Made by a program: the position numbers and the translations under genes. Below are positions 1 to 15,507 of a DNA stretch of 64,000 bases, piece after piece. Positions within the stretch are counted from its first letter, which is position 1; each line of letters starts with the position of its first letter. The notes under the pieces were generated by a model. That model was not told where the DNA came from. It made no database searches and saw only the letters and a list, made by a program, of their open reading frames with translations. This DNA is from Bacteroidales bacterium (lineage in GTDB: Bacteria; Bacteroidota; Bacteroidia; Bacteroidales; Muribaculaceae), in assembly GCA_014800815.1 (NCBI GenBank), contig JAAVFI010000050.1, forward strand, positions 1 through 64,000, in the 5' to 3' direction.

Positions 1-202
1 GCACGAGCTCATCCAATGACGGAGGAAGAAGTAGATTTTGTTTTCTATTGTCAGATTTTATCGCTAACTTTGCCATGTTATGTTATGATTATTAGTGATT
101 TAGGCGCAACACAAATTTACTGAAAATTTATGACATAGCAAAGGCTTTCGCGCTGAATTTCAGCATGAAAGCCTTATTTTTTAGCCTGACTGAACGAAAA
201 AA

Positions 203-231
203 GAGACTGCCTAAACTTGTTAGACAGCCTC
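203..231. terminator. Imperfect hairpin, possible terminator
   Basis: gagactgcctaa(203-214)/ttagacagcctc(220-231), 10 of 12 paired, followed by attttcat. Confidence 0.4.
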
Positions 232-593
232 ATTTTCATAAATAGTCGGGACAAAAACGGGACACACATATTTTGGTCACTTTGTAAAACCGGCATTTTC
301 AGGCCCGAAATTATCAAAAAATGAGCTGAGAAAATTTATTCTCGCCTAAAGAATACAGCAAAATGGTGTTGCGTCAAGGCAATCAAACTAAATCGCAATA
401 AAGGTGTTAAACAAAAACCGAAAGCATTCTGTGATCGATTAAGTCACTTCTGAGATCGTTAATGCTACATCCGCAATTTTCGAAATTTCTTTGAGATAGA
501 AATAAAAAAATGAGGGTGCAGTTCATTACGACACAGCCTCATCATTTTAGATCTTACCTGCTATCGCGGACGGTTGTACGTACTAATAACCCC

Positions 594-624
594 GATCTAT
601 AATCGCCAAAACGAAACGAGCACA
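594..624 (+). repeat. Left terminal inverted repeat of a phage-like island
   Basis: gatctataatcgccaaaacgaaacgagcaca. It matches the reverse complement of 4802-4832 at 25/31 positions, including an exact 17-nt block. Confidence 0.6.
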
Positions 625-1078
625 AGTTGGAGATACAACCGCAAATTTAGTTCACAAAATTCATGCTATTTAAGTTGTTGATTTAACGCCAATTATCCTA
701 TAAATTAGGCTTATTCGTGTTAATTGTGTAACAAAAAAACAAATGCGCTATAAATCAACACTTTACAAAATCGAACCTATCAAAATAAAACGAAGCGAGC
801 AACGGTTCAGCCCTTGAAATGTTAAAAAATAGGCGCGGCGGTCATAGTGTTAAATGAACCACCGCGCCGCGTTTGTATGTCGTAGGATCTTAACTTATCT
901 TCGTTTTAAGATAGCGTAAAAACGTTCTGTAATCGATACCCATTTCCGGGACAATATAACGCCTCCAAACCCCTTTTAGGCTCTTTGACTGATTCCCGGC
1001 TTCGTAGTATTGTGCTGCTATTTTTTTAGCGGTAATTATGCGTTGAATAGTGCTTGCATGCATAATCAAACATTAGAT

Positions 1079-1957
1079 TTATTCTGCAACTACATCGCTA
1101 ACAATCGCGCCTATACCTTTGCCACGGATAGGCAGGGCGACAAACCGCTTGTCGAAGCCTACAATCGTGCCGCGTTCTTTGGGGTCGTCCTCACTCTTAT
1201 ACATGTAAATGTCGCCGTCCGCTTTCATCACCTCTTTTGCGTAGAACGCCACGGAGGCAAATTGCGGCGTTGCATCCTCTCCGAAAGGAACTTTTGTTAA
1301 TACACCTTTGACGGCTTTATAACACGGCATTTGCGCGAACTGATAGCACCCGAACCCGGCGAACTGGTGCGGCTCTCCGTCCCTTATGTCGGTGAGGTCT
1401 TTGAATAGCTTTATATCCTCCAGAAGCAAGTCGCTGACGTGCTTAGGGTGCAGAATGATATAGCGCTCCTCAATAGGGATTCCGGCTTCATCAAAACGCT
1501 CTTTAAGCGTCAGAATGTCGGCAAAGGTCAGACGGCGGCGACCATTGACGGGCGCGCCCGTTGTAAGTATAACCGGGGTGTCGGGTGTGTCGGTCTGGGG
1601 GGCGTAGGCGTGAGCCGCTTTCATCGCCACACTCTTGCGAAGTGTTGCGCGGTGCTGTCCGATCACGCTCTCCAGCTTGTTGTAACTGTATTCTATCGCG
1701 TCCGGGCGGCGTATAAGCGTGTTTTCTGTTTCAAACTTTGCGAGGGGGATTTCGTTGTCATCGTCCTCACGCTCTACAACCTTTATAGGATAGGTTGTAT
1801 TGTCGACCAATACCTTGGGGTCAATACCAGCCGCCGGAATGTGTAAGCGGTTGTTATCCACGAACTCGGAATAATTGACAACCTTTGTTAAAAAGCTGTC
1901 ATTTGGATAAAATCCCGACAAAATCTGATTAATCCATATTTCTTTGTTAAGTGCCAT
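1079..1957 (-). CDS. Phage major capsid protein-like (HK97-fold type)
   Basis: 292-aa ORF directly downstream of a prohead-protease-like ORF. Its layout (N-arm, E/P-rich central region, C-terminal 'ATPQFASVAFYAKEVMKADGDIYMY...FDKRFVALPIRGKGIGAIVS') resembles Bacteroidetes phage capsid proteins. Confidence 0.6.
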   Translation of the reverse strand: MALNKEIWINQILSGFYPNDSFLTKVVNYSEFVDNNRLHIPAAGIDPKVLVDNTTYPIKVVEREDDDNEIPLAKFETENTLIRRPDAIEYSYNKLESVIGQHRATLRKSVAMKAAHAYAPQTDTPDTPVILTTGAPVNGRRRLTFADILTLKERFDEAGIPIEERYIILHPKHVSDLLLEDIKLFKDLTDIRDGEPHQFAGFGCYQFAQMPCYKAVKGVLTKVPFGEDATPQFASVAFYAKEVMKADGDIYMYKSEDDPKERGTIVGFDKRFVALPIRGKGIGAIVSDVVAE

Positions 1958-1965
1958 TCAGCTAA

Positions 1966-3123
1966 TTAGTTGTTAATTTGTTTATTCTGTTTGTTTTGTT
2001 CTCTCTTTGCTTGCTCCAGCATTTGCGCGTAAAATTCGGGGTGTTCGCGCAGATACTCCGGGTTATTCTTTCTATACCATTCCAGCGAGTGCGCCCCGAT
2101 TTCCTCGCCCTTTTCCGCTTTTACAAACCGGGCGTATAATTCGGGGTTGCTCTCCAGCTCTTGCGGCGCAAACTTGCGGTAATCGTCAAGCGTCCATCGG
2201 GAGCGGTCAGAATACGCCGCGCCGCCGTGTATTAGCTCCGTCGGCTTCGCCATGGGGCGCAAAGTGAACAATATCTCGCCTAACATCTTTGCGCCGATTT
2301 TTGCCCCGATACGCTCGTAAACACCGCGCTCACAATGTAATAACTTGCGTTTTGCCTGTGCTTCATCAATAAGCCGGGCAATTTCGCCCGATTGCGCCGC
2401 GCCTTGCGTTTTTACGAAATCCCGGAACGCCGCCCGGTTGCCACGCGCCAACGCTATGAACGTGCCACGCTGTCCGCTGTCAATATATCCGCGCATAATT
2501 GCATCGTCAACGGCCTCCTCGGGCGTTTCGCGCCCCTCTAACGCTGTTTTGGCTGCTTGGATAATATCTTTATCGGTTGCGTCATTTGAAAGGCTTAGAA
2601 GCGAAATTAAGGCGGTTTTAAGGACTTGCGGTGCTTCATCCTCCAAATCGTTCTCCCGATAGACGTAGCCACCGGAACGGTGCATCAGCTTAACGGCGTT
2701 TTTATTGCTCGGAATATCCACGACCGAAACCTCGATTAAACAGCATTTAACCACCGTGTCAATACCGTTTAATGTGTCGCGTTTTCCTTCCTCTATACCG
2801 ATAGACACGGCGCGGAGGAAACCGCCCTCCACTTGCTTTTTAACTTGCGCGCCTAACTCGGTGCTGTCATCGAACACGGCATCGGCTAAAAGCCGCTTTC
2901 CCTCCTTGCGGATATTCTCCCAACGCCCTATAACACCATTCTCGCGTGCGTGCTTATAGAACATTATTGGGTTGCGTTCAAATACGCTTGTATCTATACC
3001 ATCGGTCAATATAACAAGACCGTAACTATTTACGGATTCATCGCTTAACACAAAGGTTATAGGCTTGTTATCTCCATTTTCTTTGCTCATTCTGTTAATT
3101 GTTTTTGTTGCAAAATTGCTCAC
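1966..3123 (-). CDS. HK97-family prohead protease-like protein with C-terminal extension
   Basis: 'FERNPIMFYKHARENGVIGRWENIRKEGKRLLADAVFDDSTELGAQVKKQVEGGFLRAVSIGI...CCLIEVSVVDIPSNKNAVKL' matches the caudovirus prohead protease pattern. Confidence 0.75.
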   Translation of the reverse strand: MSNFATKTINRMSKENGDNKPITFVLSDESVNSYGLVILTDGIDTSVFERNPIMFYKHARENGVIGRWENIRKEGKRLLADAVFDDSTELGAQVKKQVEGGFLRAVSIGIEEGKRDTLNGIDTVVKCCLIEVSVVDIPSNKNAVKLMHRSGGYVYRENDLEDEAPQVLKTALISLLSLSNDATDKDIIQAAKTALEGRETPEEAVDDAIMRGYIDSGQRGTFIALARGNRAAFRDFVKTQGAAQSGEIARLIDEAQAKRKLLHCERGVYERIGAKIGAKMLGEILFTLRPMAKPTELIHGGAAYSDRSRWTLDDYRKFAPQELESNPELYARFVKAEKGEEIGAHSLEWYRKNNPEYLREHPEFYAQMLEQAKREQNKQNKQINN

Positions 3124-3349
3124 TTTTTTAAGTCGGTGCCAATGGTGTTATCAAAGTGATAATTATTTTATTCCTCTTTGCCCTAACTTGTTGTTGCAAA
3201 GGTACGACCAACCACACCCGGCGCAAAATAGAGTGTAAAAGATTTACACTATTTTTGCGCGAACTTTGCAATTATCGCAATTTTGCGCCAGGATATTTTG
3301 CCGGGTCAGATTATTTGCTTACCTTTGCACTATCCTAAAAATTAACAGT

Positions 3350-3437
3350 ATGAACCCCTTTAACAAACTCCCTAAAAGATATTTGCGACCTATGGTGCGG
3401 AGCGCGGAAACGCCCCGGCGCTTGTTAACTGTTAATA
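3350..3437 (+). CDS. Putative 30-aa leader peptide
   Basis: ATG at 3350: MNPFNKLPKRYLRPMVRSAETPRRLLTVNS*. It is preceded by cctaaaaattaacagt, which is repeated before the next ORF (3492). Confidence 0.35.
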
Positions 3438-3465
3438 GCGTAGGACACCTAAGGGTCGCTTTTTT
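3385..3465 (+). ncRNA. Structured leader or small RNA with terminator-like 3' end
   Basis: Closing stem gcgacc(3385-3390)/ggtcgc(3454-3459), hairpins agcgc(3401-3405)/gcgct(3418-3422) and tagg(3441-3444)/ccta(3448-3451), then TTTTTT. Confidence 0.4.
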
Positions 3466-3491
3466 ATTTAACTTCCTAAAAATTAACAGTT

Positions 3492-3776
3492 ATGAACCAT
3501 CTAACCCACGCTGAATTTGTGGCAAGTAAGGCCGCAAAATTCAACCTTGACACCCTGATCGAGGTGTTTGCTTGCGACAACGAGCCGAAGAAGATCCGCC
3601 GCGAACTCCAGACGCTTTACTTTTACGTTGTCAATGCTTTCGGCACCGGCGCGGAGCAATTAAGCGGAACTTACGCCGACGCCCTCTTCACTCTTCAAAC
3701 CATTATTGAGGCGGTTGACAACATGGAGGATAACCCCGAAGCGGCGGTCGTTTCCATAATCCCAAAACAAAACTAA
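3492..3776 (+). CDS. Small hypothetical protein of phage-like island
   Basis: 94-aa ORF downstream of a TAnnTTTG promoter and a repeated leader. Confidence 0.6.
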   Translation: MNHLTHAEFVASKAAKFNLDTLIEVFACDNEPKKIRRELQTLYFYVVNAFGTGAEQLSGTYADALFTLQTIIEAVDNMEDNPEAAVVSIIPKQN

Positions 3777-3855
3777 AAATATACCACGCGGCGGCGGTTG
3801 TCCTTTGTGGCACATCGCCGCCGCGCCTATCATAATAACAACGCTAAAATGCTGA

Positions 3856-4335
3856 ATGACAAACAAAGAGCGCATAATTGAGCTATCGAAGCACTTTAAT
3901 ACAAATGAAGTAGCCGAAATATGTAAAGTTTCGGTTAGTTACGTTTATAGGGTATTGCGCGAACATCATTCCAAAACATTAACCCTAACAAATTACCTTA
4001 ACGCCCTGCAACAAGGGATAACCAACAAAGCAGATTTAGCGGCTCTATTCGGAGTCGAGCGAACAACAATATTTAGATTTGAACAAAAGCACATGGCAAA
4101 AGAAACTGTCGGCCAAATTCTCTATATCCTTAACGGCAATATAGACGAGGCAAAAAAAGCACAAGCGTTAACCAACGAGGAAACCGCAGAACTTCTCCAG
4201 CTCCCCACGCTGCCAAAGGTTACGCACGAATTGCGGCAAATGCTTAACAAGTTAGAAAAACACAAAAAACTAACACCATTTCACACGGAACTATATAACA
4301 AGATTGCGGCGGCACTTAACGCGCTGAAATGTTAA
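3856..4335 (+). CDS. HTH-containing DNA-binding protein
   Basis: 159 aa with two HTH-like segments: 'FNTNEVAEICKVSVSYVYRVLREH' and 'TNKADLAALFGVERTTIFRFEQKH'. Confidence 0.65.
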   Translation: MTNKERIIELSKHFNTNEVAEICKVSVSYVYRVLREHHSKTLTLTNYLNALQQGITNKADLAALFGVERTTIFRFEQKHMAKETVGQILYILNGNIDEAKKAQALTNEETAELLQLPTLPKVTHELRQMLNKLEKHKKLTPFHTELYNKIAAALNALKC

Positions 4336-4546
4336 AAATAAATTGCGTTTTAGTTCAAAATGCAACATTAATAGACCATCCAACCCCAAATAAAACGAAC
4401 CGTGCATTTTTAACATTTTTAGGTATTTAGTATTCTGCAACTTAAATGATTTAATGTATATCCAACCGCCTGCAACATCGCTATTTTGTACGTTTCGTTT
4501 TGTGCAACATTGCCGATTTTAGCCCCTTAACCGCTCCAGACGTTAA

Positions 4547-4585
4547 AACGCCGTTTAATCGTCATTCACACGATTAAACGGCGTT
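4547..4585. terminator. Perfect 15-bp stem hairpin
   Basis: aacgccgtttaatcg(4547-4561)/cgattaaacggcgtt(4571-4585), 9-nt loop. It may be a terminator or an origin/packaging structure. Confidence 0.6.
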
Positions 4586-4656
4586 TCTATATATCACCAC
4601 TAAATCAACGCATTAGCGAGTAAATAAGCGTTCAATCAGACGTTAAAATTAAAGTA

Positions 4657-4742
4657 AAATTCAACTTGATTAAAGCCAAATTCAACTAAAATACAACCAA
4701 ATCACCCCGGAAATTAAACCCAAATTCAAGCAAATTAAACTT
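4657..4742 (+). repeat. Degenerate 21-23 bp tandem repeats (iteron-like)
   Basis: Units start at 4657 (aaattcaacttgattaaagcc), 4678 (aaattcaactaaaatacaacc), 4699 (aaatcaccccggaaattaaaccc) and 4722 (aaattcaagcaaattaaactt). Confidence 0.6.
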
Positions 4743-4801
4743 TTTCAAATCAGCGACTTAACGCCAATCCCCACCACCTCAGCGCGTTATGCAACAAAGA
4801 G

Positions 4802-4832
4802 TGTGCTCGTTTCGTTTTTACCCCCATAGATC
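4802..4832 (-). repeat. Right terminal inverted repeat of phage-like island
   Basis: Reverse complement gatctatgggggtaaaaacgaaacgagcaca. Pairs with 594-624. Confidence 0.6.
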
Positions 4833-4999
4833 CTCTCTTTTTTTGTATTCATATTATTGTAATCGCTCTGCTTAGATGAACATAGTCTTGACTGCGTGAA
4901 TTTAAATTTTTGTCCGCACTCAATCACGTATTATTCTTACTTTTGTAGAATAAATTGCTTATAAGAGCGTCAATCTCAAAAAAATTGCTTAACTTTGCA

Positions 5000-5270
5000 T
5001 TATCCGATGGAGGAGAAATACCGTCGGATAAGAAAAGTGTCAAGCTTTCTTTCTCAGCTAAACGAATCGCCAATTCAACAAAAGGACTGAGACAGAGTGA
5101 GATTAGACGCTCTTTCTGTATTTGTCGTAACTATACCTGCGACCATAGTTATCGCACCTTAGCATAGACAAATCCAGAGGGGCAGTTTATTCTACCCTCA
5201 TTATCATTCAGTCCTTGGCTTTGGCGAGCCAGTTTAGCTATGATAGAGGCGAGATGAATTCCCCTCTTTT
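5000..5270 (+). ncRNA. Candidate structured non-coding RNA or 5' leader of the tubulin operon
   Basis: Promoter-like ttaactttgc at ~4989-4998, then helices ttatccgatgg/ccgtcggataa (5000-5010/5021-5031), atttgtc/gacaaat (5120-5126/5167-5173), taactat/atagtta (5128-5134/5145-5151), agagggg/cccctct (5176-5182/5261-5267), tggct/agcca (5216-5220/5227-5231), then tttt. Confidence 0.5.
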
Positions 5271-5337
5271 CTTATACCCAATCCTCACCGCCAAATTAGG
5301 GAATCAGGAGGCATAAACGCTGATTAAGCAATGCTTT

Positions 5338-5928
5338 ATGATTGAAAATATCTTAGCATATTCTATTGGGAGCCTCTTTTGGGGCATCCTGATAGCAATA
5401 GTCTGTATGTGTTTATTCCTTTTCCTTATCAAAGGTTGGTATAAGGATGCATATTTCAAGCCTGTATCGTATATCATCGCAATAATTTTAGGCACAATAT
5501 TGGTATATAATTGTACTATTATTTGCGGTGCCATCGCAATAAAGTTGAATGTAAATTCCTTTGAGAATCAGGTTGTTCATGTTGTAAAAAGCAATTTTCC
5601 CGACTACGATGCTGTCGTTGACCAAAGAACTTCTAACGACATTATTCAGCAAGTCGTAAAAGAGCACCCAATTCTGCTCTACTATGTTGGTTCCGGAAAT
5701 TTTGAAGGCTGGAAACTATCAGAATTACCAAATGTAATGTCTGATACCCTCAGGAGCTATTTAAACAATATAATTATAAAAAAGATTGCATGGTCCCTCG
5801 GTTTTGTCATTTTGGGCGCAATTATCGCCATAAAGACAATTGGTCGAAACGATTCCGTTAAACGACAAACGACGAGATTAAAACCAAGACCAGCAACCAG
5901 AATTCGTAGAACAACAAGAAGAAGATAA
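5338..5928 (+). CDS. Multi-TM membrane protein with Arg-rich C-terminus, tubulin operon
   Basis: 196 aa, about three hydrophobic segments, tail RIRRTTRRR, 26 bp upstream of the tubulin-like ORF. Confidence 0.75.
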   Translation: MIENILAYSIGSLFWGILIAIVCMCLFLFLIKGWYKDAYFKPVSYIIAIILGTILVYNCTIICGAIAIKLNVNSFENQVVHVVKSNFPDYDAVVDQRTSNDIIQQVVKEHPILLYYVGSGNFEGWKLSELPNVMSDTLRSYLNNIIIKKIAWSLGFVILGAIIAIKTIGRNDSVKRQTTRLKPRPATRIRRTTRRR

Positions 5929-5954
5929 CCAGAAAATAATATCGCGTTTAATAT

Positions 5955-8900
5955 ATGAGTAATACAGTAAGAGTAACAGGAAACCACATACTCGTAGGTC
6001 TTGGGGGAACCGGAGGAAAGATTCTTCGAGCCTTCAAGATGCGTATGTTTGAAGAATTTCCGACATCAGATGAGCGTAAAAAACAGCCGGTATCAATATT
6101 GTACGTTGATTCGACAGACGAAATGATGCCAAAAGATGGACGCGCACGTGCTGATTTCAGAGTAATGGGCCAGGATGCATCATTTACTAATAATGAGTTT
6201 TTGAACATCAAGGCAGTAGACGTTGAGCATATTCTTGATCATATTGGAAATTATCCTTCAGTTAAAGGTATTGTTGACAATGTAGGTGCCGTAAAGTCAG
6301 CAATTGGCTCTCTCGGTCAAGCGGCCGGTCAAAAGCGCCGAGCAGGACGCTTGCTCTTCGCCGCTAATGCTGTAGGCTATGTAAATAGTTTGAAAGATGC
6401 CTATTACCGAGCACAAGAAATTTCGGGTACTTCTGATAATACCACGATTTATCTCTTTGCGGGTCTTTCAGGTGGTACCGGTTCAGGCTCTATTGTAGAT
6501 GCCCTTATTCAAACAAGAAAGACGTTCCCGGATGCGAAGATTCTGGTATATGCTATGCTCCCTGAAATGAATCTACCGAAGAGTGATATGGATCAGGGCC
6601 GCTATTACCAGAATGGTTATGCGGCAATGAACGAGCTTAATGCCCTCCAGACAGGGCGATGGGCACCACACGATGTTACCGGTAATAGCCCAATCAATCT
6701 TTACAATGACCGGGTAAAAGGTGTTGCTGATGGTTTGACCATTTATAGCAATGTAAACGAAAATGGTCTTACACTTAACTCGCTGTCAGAACTTCCAAAG
6801 ATTGTAAGTGACTATGTTTTCGCCCGTATCTTCTATGTCAATGACGAAGATCAGGTAAACGGTGACATAATCCGAGCATACAACTTTGAGAATATGGACG
6901 ACTTCGCACTTGAGTTTGACGAGGTTGCAAATGCTGATGCCAACGGTCGCATCCCGGTTGCCCGAACAAAGAAAATTAACTCCTTTGGTATAAAGCGAGT
7001 AATTTATCCGGAACTCCGCGTCCTTAAACATGTGACCTATTCAGTAGGTGAAAGTATTCTCTATCAGTTCAAATACAATAACTGGGACGAGAACCTCGGC
7101 TTTATAAACCAGGAGAAGAACAAGGATTATCGTCGCGAGTATTTTTCAAGGGAGAATCAGCAAAAATGGATGCTTGATGTTGAACATCTGACTCTTGAAA
7201 AGAAAATTCTCGAGGCGGACACAGATTATCCGGACTTCAAAGGCGATTGGCATGAAAAATCAATCGGTTACTCTGACGAAGCCAAAAAGGGCAATGATCC
7301 CCTTAACGAACTTGATAATATTTTAGCCGACATTTATTCACTTCACTTCAGGGAAGATGGAGTCGAGAACTTTTATGCATCCAAAGAGCGTGTTATTCCA
7401 GAAATGGCAAAGGAGGTTGTTCACAAAATTGAACAATCGCTCTTTGAGAAATGGAAGCTTGGAGATATTTCTATCATAGAGCTTCAAAAGGTTTCCAAAC
7501 TGCTCATTGAACGTATCAGCGAGATTCGTACTGAGCTTGAGACTGAAATCAAGGAAGAGACTAAAAACCTGAAAGCCATTGACGATGATCGTTATGGCAA
7601 TGTAGAGGCATGGAGTCGACTCGGTATCCTTCAGAGAATGGTTGGAGCTGGTGCAAGTCGATTTGCCGTGCATAAGGACATCCTCGCTGATTACTATGCC
7701 TCTAAGACTCGACTTGTCTCACTGGAATTTGCTAAGAAGTTGGCAGGTAAAATCTCAATGGAGATTAGCCGCATGGATGCCGACATCACCCTCTTGGCAC
7801 AGAAAATCACCGAATCTATCGACGAAACAGAAAAACTCCTCACCTCACAGCGCAAAGTCAACAAGGGTCTTGAAGATATGCGCGGTGCGGTCATAGAGGT
7901 CAGCGAGGAAGAAGCTATGGGTAACTTTGAGGTTGACGTTAAGATTGATAAGGTGGATATGCCAAATATCGCCAATCAACTTCGTCAGTCAATTCTTCCG
8001 GAGGGCGACTTCGTGAACTTTGGCGTATTAGCTTCCGATATCAATATTGATAACATCAAGGATGCTTTTGATTTGAAACTTTCTGAAATAATCCGCGCCA
8101 AACACAGTGAGAAAGTCAGCAAAGAGAAGAAAGTACTCGGACTTAATATCCTCACTCAGTTGCAGCAGAAGCTGAAAACCGATGATGATATCAAGGCTTT
8201 CGCATCTAAGATTGTACAGCAAAGCGGTGTATATCTGCGTCTGAACAATGACCAGATTCAGCTTCACATCCGTAATAATGAAGGTAATCTCAGTCCGACA
8301 AATCCTGCAAGTATCAATAAGAAAGCAATTCTTGTAAACATTCCTTCACCGGATGAGAACGAGGGATTAAAACGTTTTGCAGACAAATTGGAAGAGGCAT
8401 TCAAAAACTCTTTCAATCAGTCAACTGCACGTACTACCATTTCAATCAATCGCAACAGTCCGCGCAAAGATGAACTTTCAATCATCACCGTAAGCTATTG
8501 CTACCCGATGCGTGCAATCGATTGGATGAAACCTTACAAAGAGAAGTATGAACGATTCCTGAATACGGGTAATCCGAACACCGATGCCGGAAACGCAATA
8601 CTACTTCACAGCGAGGGCAATGGCAGTCAATTCCCATTAATCTTCGCTGTAGATAACGCCGAGGAAATTGCGGCTAAAAAAGCAGCGACACAAGCAGCGG
8701 TAAATCAGCCTCAACAACCCTCTGCTTTTGCACAACCTCAAACTGCACAATCTCCTGTTATTGGTGGTGGTATGCCACCCATGCCAGGTGCACCGGCAAT
8801 GCCGCCCATGCCAGGTATGACTCCTCCCACTCCGGCTCCTGAGCCTGAGATCGCATTGTATATCGCGGTTGCAGGACAGCAATATGGACCTTTCAACCGA

Positions 8901-9092
8901 GAGCTATGTAAGCAAATGGTGAAAAGCGGTCAGCTCACAGAGCAATCAACAGTATGGATGGAAGGATTGCCGGCTTGGACTGCTGCAGGTCAGGTGCCAA
9001 CGCTAAAGTCATTGTTTGTACCACAAATGTCGTCTTCAATGCCCGGTGCTTCCAGTATGCCCCCCATACTTCCAACCATGCCCCCAATGTAA
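5955..9092 (+). CDS. Tubulin/FtsZ-superfamily protein (Tubulin_2-like) with Pro/Met-rich linker and C-terminal GYF_2-like domain
   Basis: N-terminal 'ILVGLGGTGGKILRAFK', tubulin signature 'LFAGLSGGTGSGSIVDAL', C-terminal 'ALYIAVAGQQYGPFNRELCKQMVKSGQLTEQSTVWMEGLPAWTAAGQVPTLKSLF' (GYF_2/DUF4339 pattern). Confidence 0.85.
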   Translation: MSNTVRVTGNHILVGLGGTGGKILRAFKMRMFEEFPTSDERKKQPVSILYVDSTDEMMPKDGRARADFRVMGQDASFTNNEFLNIKAVDVEHILDHIGNYPSVKGIVDNVGAVKSAIGSLGQAAGQKRRAGRLLFAANAVGYVNSLKDAYYRAQEISGTSDNTTIYLFAGLSGGTGSGSIVDALIQTRKTFPDAKILVYAMLPEMNLPKSDMDQGRYYQNGYAAMNELNALQTGRWAPHDVTGNSPINLYNDRVKGVADGLTIYSNVNENGLTLNSLSELPKIVSDYVFARIFYVNDEDQVNGDIIRAYNFENMDDFALEFDEVANADANGRIPVARTKKINSFGIKRVIYPELRVLKHVTYSVGESILYQFKYNNWDENLGFINQEKNKDYRREYFSRENQQKWMLDVEHLTLEKKILEADTDYPDFKGDWHEKSIGYSDEAKKGNDPLNELDNILADIYSLHFREDGVENFYASKERVIPEMAKEVVHKIEQSLFEKWKLGDISIIELQKVSKLLIERISEIRTELETEIKEETKNLKAIDDDRYGNVEAWSRLGILQRMVGAGASRFAVHKDILADYYASKTRLVSLEFAKKLAGKISMEISRMDADITLLAQKITESIDETEKLLTSQRKVNKGLEDMRGAVIEVSEEEAMGNFEVDVKIDKVDMPNIANQLRQSILPEGDFVNFGVLASDINIDNIKDAFDLKLSEIIRAKHSEKVSKEKKVLGLNILTQLQQKLKTDDDIKAFASKIVQQSGVYLRLNNDQIQLHIRNNEGNLSPTNPASINKKAILVNIPSPDENEGLKRFADKLEEAFKNSFNQSTARTTISINRNSPRKDELSIITVSYCYPMRAIDWMKPYKEKYERFLNTGNPNTDAGNAILLHSEGNGSQFPLIFAVDNAEEIAAKKAATQAAVNQPQQPSAFAQPQTAQSPVIGGGMPPMPGAPAMPPMPGMTPPTPAPEPEIALYIAVAGQQYGPFNRELCKQMVKSGQLTEQSTVWMEGLPAWTAAGQVPTLKSLFVPQMSSSMPGASSMPPILPTMPPM

Positions 9093-14541: not shown

Positions 14542-15507
14542 ATGAAACGATTTATAGCAATACTATCAACCTTCTGGTTGATTCTTTCGGCAAGTGCTCA
14601 AGTTGAGGTCGAGGTAATTGATGGCACATCAAATCAGATGTTGAAGAATAGCATAGAACGCAATGCCTCATCTTTTATGAGCGAGGTATATAATGCATAC
14701 CAAGGGAACCGCGCTCTCAACCTTTCTGGTCTCGTATCACCCAATGCAGAGATGTCAATAGAAATGCTTTGGGAAAATGTCCATTTCTGCCCCGAAGACC
14801 AGTATGTAGCTGAAATACTCCTTAACTCTTCTGACGGCTACCAGCTTCGTAACATCCCGCTCGTTATTCTCCCTCAGGATGCCGGAGCGGATACCGACTA
14901 CAAGGATGCTGTGCTCAATTTTGACCGAAACGGTAACATCGCTGCGGTCTACTTCTCAATTGAAAGCAACACCTACAAGAATATCATGGAGAAAGGCGTT
15001 CAGCTCAACGATATGGAGCGTCGTCTTGAAATCCTCGATTACGTGGAGCGATTCCGAACATCATATAACCAAAAAGACCTTAACTTCCTTAACCAGGTAT
15101 TTTCCGACGATGCTCTCATTATCACCGGTAAGGTCATAAACGCCCGCAAAGGTGATGGATTTATCTCGATGCCCAAAGTAACATACACCAAGCAGACGAA
15201 AAGCGAGTATCTTGCAAAACTTAGCAACATTTTCCGTAACAATCGCTATATCAACGTGAAGTTTGATGATGTGCAGATCAAACGCCATGGCGCAAACCCC
15301 AATATCTATGGTGTGCGCGTTGTTCAGCACTGGAACACCTCCAACTATAGCGATGAAGGCTATGTCTATATGGTTTGGGACTTTTCCAATCCAGAAGCGC
15401 CACAGATACATGTTCGAACATGGCAACCTATGTACCTCGATAGTGCAAAGAAAAATCCGCTTCCCGAGGAAGAGATTTTTGATTTAAACTCTTTTGAAGG
15501 TATCTGA
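14542..15507 (+). CDS. Secreted protein with NTF2-like domain
   Basis: Signal peptide, and 'ILDYVERFRTSYNQKDLNFLNQVFSDDALIITGKV...YVYMVWDFSNPEAPQIHVRTWQP', typical of Bacteroidetes NTF2-like proteins. Confidence 0.65.
   Translation: MKRFIAILSTFWLILSASAQVEVEVIDGTSNQMLKNSIERNASSFMSEVYNAYQGNRALNLSGLVSPNAEMSIEMLWENVHFCPEDQYVAEILLNSSDGYQLRNIPLVILPQDAGADTDYKDAVLNFDRNGNIAAVYFSIESNTYKNIMEKGVQLNDMERRLEILDYVERFRTSYNQKDLNFLNQVFSDDALIITGKVINARKGDGFISMPKVTYTKQTKSEYLAKLSNIFRNNRYINVKFDDVQIKRHGANPNIYGVRVVQHWNTSNYSDEGYVYMVWDFSNPEAPQIHVRTWQPMYLDSAKKNPLPEEEIFDLNSFEGI

Follow-up and report, generated by a model that had tools for sequence, protein, structure and literature searches.

A 4,231-bp element carrying genes for a major capsid protein (MCP) and a prohead protease lies near the left end of the 64,000-nucleotide stretch of DNA analysed here (the window; contig JAAVFI010000050.1 of a Bacteroidales bacterium of the family Muribaculaceae). 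A preliminary description had bounded this island by matching ends at 594-624 and 4802-4832, and in a repeat search of window 1-6500 these were the first-ranked of 25 inverted pairs, with 81% identity. The outermost GATC on either side, however, is a target-site duplication that lies outside the element, which therefore occupies only 598-4828. Read inward from outside, the two ends are GATC followed by TATAATCGCCAAAACGAAACGAGCACA and GATC followed by TATGGGGGTAAAAACGAAACGAGCACA. The features of the locus are given below in window coordinates, where "helper" refers to Mu-like phages considered further on, one of which resides in genome G170, and G032 is another genome carrying the element.

594-597, no strand: left copy of the target-site duplication GATC, same as 4829-4832; the 4-bp duplication read here is perfect in 7/7 elements
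598-623, plus: element end of the helper right type, TATAATCGCCAAAACGAAACGAGCAC; first 16 nt equal the right end of the G170 phage
787-803, plus: second end-repeat copy, candidate transposase-binding site; 3 mismatches to AAAACGAAACGAGCACA
890-1063, minus: c57, a 57-aa open reading frame (ORF); 63% identity to the G032 copy, homologue in the G170 phage
1079-1957, minus: MCP, 292 aa; phrog_267, PDB 9jwb, profile match to the G170 MCP
1966-3123, minus: prohead protease, 385 aa; PF04586 Peptidase_S78, phrog_80, phrog_11321
3333-3352, plus: leader translation start (TCCTAAAAATTAACAGTATG), first target of the antisense RNA; perfectly complementary over 9 nt to the element's own c4 loop
3381-3465, plus: c4-2 antisense RNA (Rfam RF02944); 59.6 bits, E 1.1e-11, cut-off 41
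3474-3494, plus: start of the gene for the 94-aa protein, with its ribosome-binding region; second target of the antisense RNA; perfectly complementary over 11 nt to the own c4 loop
3492-3776, plus: S94, 94-aa protein, directly under predicted c4 control; homologues in three other satellites and a VapE-type element
3856-4335, plus: tandem helix-turn-helix (HTH) protein, 159 aa; two HTH regions
4392-4408, plus: end-repeat copy, degenerate; 4 mismatches
4485-4501, minus: end-repeat copy, candidate transposase-binding site; 3 mismatches
4546-4586, no strand: hairpin from the repeat search, 17-bp perfect, likely terminator 3' of the HTH gene; the G032 counterpart is 15-bp
4803-4828, minus: element end of the helper left type, TATGGGGGTAAAAACGAAACGAGCAC; 21/26 against the helper left-end consensus
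4829-4832, no strand: right copy of the target-site duplication GATC, same as 594-597

The four genes named in the preliminary description, for a protease, an MCP, a 94-aa protein and a 159-aa HTH protein, were all recovered, but c57, the c4-2 RNA and the end repeats at 787, 4392 and 4485 had been missed. The protease and capsid assignments were upheld by Pfam, PHROG, PDB and profile matches. The MCP matched phrog_267 (2.4e-13), a PDB major capsid protein chain (9jwb_A, 2e-5) and, in a profile comparison, the MCP of the Mu-like phage in G170 (1.5e-42); its structure prediction from six sequences was poor (mean predicted local distance difference test score 41.6) and was not used. The protease matched Peptidase_S78 at the cut-off and Mu-like_Pro below the cut-off, with PHROG matches to phrog_11321 (2.5e-48) and to the head maturation proteases of phrog_80 (4e-13). 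The c57 homologue of the G170 phage is 79 aa long (L101:15917-16156), and a Foldseek search with the predicted model of the HTH protein returned nothing significant. Within 598-4828 there is no terminase, portal, tail, integrase or transposase gene, as had been claimed, and no replicase gene.

The contig starts at window position 1, which leaves no upstream sequence to read, but the element is shown to be complete by its paired duplications and by identical boundaries in other species. These closed boundaries exclude an upstream remainder of a contiguous prophage.

Recurrence, mobility and selection

Searching 397 genomes of the same family, and later the wider order, for the island at other sites, we recovered the same element from six other species. 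MCP relatives in the family comprised six at 66-100% identity to the window MCP, followed by a gap down to ~39%; besides the window's own, they belong to G269 (98%), G032 (96%), G197 (75%), G240 (70%) and G315 (66%). The order search added MCPs from G507 (81%), G779 and G648 (73%), G515 (61%) and G671 (59%, on a short contig). The element was thus found in 6/397 family genomes and, counting the window's, in seven species of several genera at unrelated sites. Its size is 4,171-4,713 bp in the six family members and 4,058 bp in G507, and the family gene order is invariant: HTH gene, ORF at the S94 position, c4 RNA and, divergently, protease, MCP and c57. The S94-position ORF of G197 encodes an unrelated-looking 81-aa protein, no S94 match was found in the G315 element, and the G032 element additionally has a gpG-like neck/tail-completion gene (phrog_26, 9e-10). 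G269 contains two further partial copies, mutually 88% identical and cut off at contig ends.

Perfect 4-bp duplications flank the six family members (GATC at the window copy, then CATC, CGAC, TTTG, TTAG and AAAT) when the element end is set ten bases outside the AAAACG repeat. In G507 the inner repeat differs, the terminal bases TATAATCGCG/TACGGGCG are conserved and the duplication is AAAG, so that the target-site duplication sought is present in all seven elements. An empty site of the window copy was not seen, since the similarity to relatives is confined to the right flank, starting at window 4929; elements at other sites were therefore excised in silico instead. Removing the element and one duplication copy restored open frames of 1105 codons in G269, 362 in G240, 358 in G315 and 500 in G507. 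In addition, the satellites of viral contig L003 and of G197 are 99.6% identical over 3.8 kb up to the element boundary and have different flanks. In L003, a contig classed as viral, the copy abuts the cut end of a ParB gene that has replication-type genes next to it.

Where dS was estimable, pairwise ratios of nonsynonymous to synonymous substitution rates (dN/dS) were 0.04-0.20 for the MCP, mostly near 0.1, and 0.17-0.39 for the protease; purifying selection on the satellite MCPs is thus strong. A tree of 45 MCPs splits a satellite-plus-mini-element group from the phage MCPs on one branch (97/99), and the nine satellites form a clade (98/95) whose nearest outside group consists of the mini-elements L004 and L282, with MuA and/or MuB plus capsid, and the short G671 contig. 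Terminase genes are absent nearby in 9/9 close relatives with several kilobases of flank (MCP 61-100%) and present in 13/13 phage homologues with enough flank (MCP at most 45% identical to the window MCP); none of these nine relatives thus places the two genes inside a larger phage module.

These data bear on whether the elements are independent decayed prophages, that is, Mu-like phages reduced by internal deletion but retaining both ends. Every structural gene does have a phage counterpart, and L004 and L282 show that reduced forms arise. However, the near-constant gene set and size in seven elements, the intact ORFs and low dN/dS, the distinct MCP clade, a c4 module not seen in the G170 phage and the recent mobility make this improbable. 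The decayed transposable prophage, one of two options in the preliminary description, is contradicted by the recurrent unit, the purifying selection and the separate capsid clade, and the remark made there that intact shell and protease ORFs are unlike random decay fits the low dN/dS and that clade. Less probable still is domestication by the host, as an encapsulin-like compartment or an anti-phage defence cassette. The shell gene is under purifying selection and the window's own genome has no helper, as such a cassette might predict, but the element has transposed, is bounded by duplications, lies at unrelated sites that are sometimes inside genes and occurs in so few family genomes. It also retains a prohead protease, which encapsulins are not known to have.

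Some relatives differ in layout. Two 97% identical ones from another family (L279:5243-8390 and L280:5282-8426) carry c4-2 and paired 83/91-aa ORFs beyond c57, and in the G515 relative (L281:4637-8664; MCP 61%) a further gene, of 299 aa, separates MCP from c57, and an 87-aa ORF resembling S94 follows the HTH gene. Outside the own ends of the G032 satellite lie 39-nt inverted repeats, 95% complementary (L028:10142-10180 and 15237-15275), which are perhaps an older element resembling a miniature inverted-repeat transposable element (MITE), or a hairpin, into which the satellite inserted. Matches to TACAATCGGAAAAACG occur in G000, G182 and G100, the G000 copy having no satellite context in the stretch read.

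Antisense RNA and the S94-HTH operon

All six family satellites, the window's included, have a c4-2 RNA upstream of the S94 position; a search of segments L101 and L102 of the G170 phage found none. Like members of the c4 antisense RNA clan, the satellite RNA has the c4 secondary structure, scoring above the RF02944 cut-off, and a loop complementary to a downstream translation start. Each loop is perfectly complementary over 9-11 nt to its own downstream and leader starts, compared with 4-7 nt to those of other specificities, and it changes in step with its target between elements, giving five distinct specificities. In the window, the leader start at 3333-3352 is a near copy of 3474-3494 in the repeat search, and the latter has 4-5 nt complementarity to c4 loops of other specificities.

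S94 is 28-64% identical to the copies of three other satellites and to a 118-aa protein beside c4-2 in an unrelated VapE-type element (the label "VapE" is our own reading of the sequence). Since this homologue adjoins c4-2 there too, the RNA and S94 look like an exchangeable immunity module, judging from their arrangement. The HTH protein has homologues across the six family satellites, with 26-65% identity. We considered it as a small terminase but could not uphold this, as its PHROG matches are HTH-level and the alignment to the helper TerS profile covers one HTH only.

In phage P1, c4 RNA is required for full repression of ant, and hence for lysogeny (PMC8198154). By this analogy we read S94-HTH as an operon that needs to be silent in the resident state, and the satellite would owe its quiescence to its own antisense RNA. 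During lysogeny, a c4-type RNA made upstream of S94-HTH would pair with the leader and S94 starts and block the operon, each satellite lineage having its own loop/target specificity. The co-variation of loop and target is observed directly, and the regulation itself is predicted from it.

RNAs of the c4-2 type without these capsid genes were seen in 14 other family genomes (loci L193, L196, L201 and L202). Some of these loci adjoin a conserved 312-315-aa replication-type protein, and one is the VapE-type element with the S94 homologue.

Helper phages and a proposed cycle

A search of nine genomes with the pattern of the c57-side end matched G170, whose sequence agrees with that of the window over all of the first 16 nt. 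The G170 Mu-like phage is 37,045 bp long, is present in about six copies and is flanked by GATG; one copy spans L101+L102+L103 (G170:C1:1742206-1779250). It encodes a transposase (phrog_310, 3e-44), a MuB-like ATPase, TerS/TerL, protease, MCP, tape measure and a c57 homologue. Insertion sequence-type transposase genes sit within this prophage, and its copies differ in places. In related phages from other genera, the left ends read TA(T/C)GGGCATnAAAACGAAGCGAGCA, the right ends read TATAATCGnnAAAACGAAACGTGCA and the duplications are of 4 bp (AAAA in G140, GTAC in G210 and GAAA in G266); bounding repeats of 4 bp are also reported for the transposable phages of Porphyromonas gingivalis, which are grouped with hankyphage (PMC10367356). 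The HTH-side end of the window element agrees with the helper left consensus at 21/26 positions and its c57-side end with the right consensus at 23/26, compared with best scores of 18/26 and 17/26, respectively, elsewhere in window 6001-64000. Alongside its satellite, the G269 genome contains a fragment of a helper transposase and the left end of a helper, and this satellite copies the helper right-end arrangement AAAACGnAACGTGCAACTTTCTAAAACGAAACG, in which two sites lie 22 bp apart.

Because the element has no transposase and its ends match those of the phages, we infer that it depends on a helper, and because the ends match both the left and the right helper type, the helper transposase would be used in trans. 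We therefore favour, with a probability of roughly 0.8, the reading that the element is a satellite of Mu-like phages transposed by its helper: it is complete, non-autonomous and capsid-encoding, and very probably a parasite of a larger Mu-like phage. The other option of the preliminary description, a capsid-encoding satellite, is supported by the nearly constant gene set and size, the unrelated sites, the 4-bp duplications, the phage-matching ends, the purifying selection, the separate capsid clade and the element's own c4 control.

In the proposed cycle, the helper transposase (MuA/MuB) would move and replicate the satellite in trans, leaving 4-bp duplications. When the helper is active, the S94-HTH operon would be released and the divergent protease-MCP-c57 genes would be expressed. 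The satellite would then supply its own shell protein and maturation protease, and the helper would have to provide terminase, portal, tail and lysis functions. The likely pay-off would be a capsid that favours satellite DNA over that of the helper or is smaller than the helper's, the smaller shell being a guess from the 4-kb genome. The most doubtful step is the completion of the satellite shell by helper terminase, portal and tail, and packaging of the satellite in its own shell is proposed tentatively, at slightly below even odds. Equally tentative is the full scheme in which the family hijacks a Mu-like transposase to replicate and spreads in a shell of its own, which the helper terminase fills, under heteroimmune antisense-RNA control.

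The main rival is a capsid-carrying transposon that does not package itself. It would be moved by the helper transposase, its capsid and protease would only poison or skew helper assembly, and it would reach new cells by inserting into phages or conjugative elements. Interference with capsids is well established among satellites, neither terminase nor portal is encoded, and the contig that holds the L003 copy, in a ParB gene next to genes of replication type, is classed as viral. However, shell and protease are both kept, in G032 together with the neck/tail-completion protein; since poisoning would need one protein only, this retention of several counts against the non-packaging transposon, which we consider rather unlikely.

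Several points weigh against a packaged satellite of Mu-like phages. The case, particles included, is built from sequence, and no pac-like site or small-terminase function has been demonstrated in the element. Ends were not located for the related elements in G779/G648 and G515, where the gene order differs, and G515 has no c4-2 RNA at the cut-off. No close helper transposase was found in the window's own genome or its sampled genus, nor any MuA match in G000, and the window's satellite copy may be stranded without a helper.

The transposase of L004 was also considered as a helper function for these satellites, but it had no match in satellite genomes and the G170 transposase was taken instead. 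L004:1727-9763, ~8 kb inside the glycerate kinase gene of a metagenome contig, encodes a repressor, a MuA-like transposase, MuB, a ClpP-type protease, an MCP (52%) and tail-protein fragments, and is a second kind of reduced capsid-bearing Mu-like element, with its own transposase. L282 (G463:C77), 2774-7054, encodes a MuB-like ATPase, a baseplate-like protein, a ClpP-type protease and an MCP (48%), with no terminase match.

To the right of the element, the non-coding window 4929-5317 is 79-86% conserved in several other congeneric species, as an unexplained intergenic repeat. The protein encoded at window 5955-9092 (1045 aa) combines a GYF_2 domain with a GTPase domain of tubulin-like type (Tubulin_2, 9e-45), and its gene is preceded by a 196-aa ORF that has no Pfam match.

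Relation to known satellites

The antisense-type immunity RNA of P4 is a functional parallel to the satellite c4 RNA. P4 uses the P2 capsid and has its own replicase and integrase, whereas the element described here has neither, encodes its own MCP and has no size-redirecting scaffold. With the Bacteroidales Mu-like phages of the hankyphage/Porphyromonas group it shares the ends, the 4-bp duplication and distant MCP, protease, c57 and gpG homologues. Unlike these phages, it encodes no DDE transposase or ATPase activator; G170 also has terminase and tail, and the satellite MCP is 38% identical to that of G170 and ~65 residues shorter at the N terminus.

Capsid-forming phage-inducible chromosomal islands (cfPICIs) also encode their own MCP and head maturation protease and rely on a helper for the rest of the virion. 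According to the summary in PMC10690885, cfPICIs additionally encode portal, connectors, both terminase subunits and an HNH endonuclease and take tails only. Our element has none of these genes and no integrase, and instead has transposition ends and scattered sites with 4-bp duplications. The Streptomyces phage satellites MulchRoom and MiniFlayer likewise have capsid genes and lack replication genes, but their genes include those for terminase, portal and scaffold, and they exploit virulent phages (PMC10690885), whereas the helper here would be temperate and transposable and the satellite would replicate through transposition. MITEs resemble the element in having terminal inverted ends moved by the transposase of another element; as described in the review PMC11389934, they are ~300 nt and non-coding, unlike this non-autonomous 4.2-kb element with five conserved genes and an RNA. 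None of the satellite families in the sections of that review consulted is described as a satellite of a transposable phage, and our search of the open-licence literature turned up no account of satellites that exploit Mu-like or hankyphage-type phages. At <5 kb, this is perhaps the smallest capsid-encoding phage satellite.

The finding gives the Rfam c4-2 RNA a biological setting. In addition, a defined group of helpers, one of them sharing a genome with a satellite, together with readable ends and predicted immunity specificities, make transposition, packaging and superinfection immunity directly testable. The capsid-encoding satellites known so far have complete modules for head and packaging, and this family retains the shell and protease only. 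Transposition appears to serve it for both integration and replication, which would show how little a satellite needs to own.

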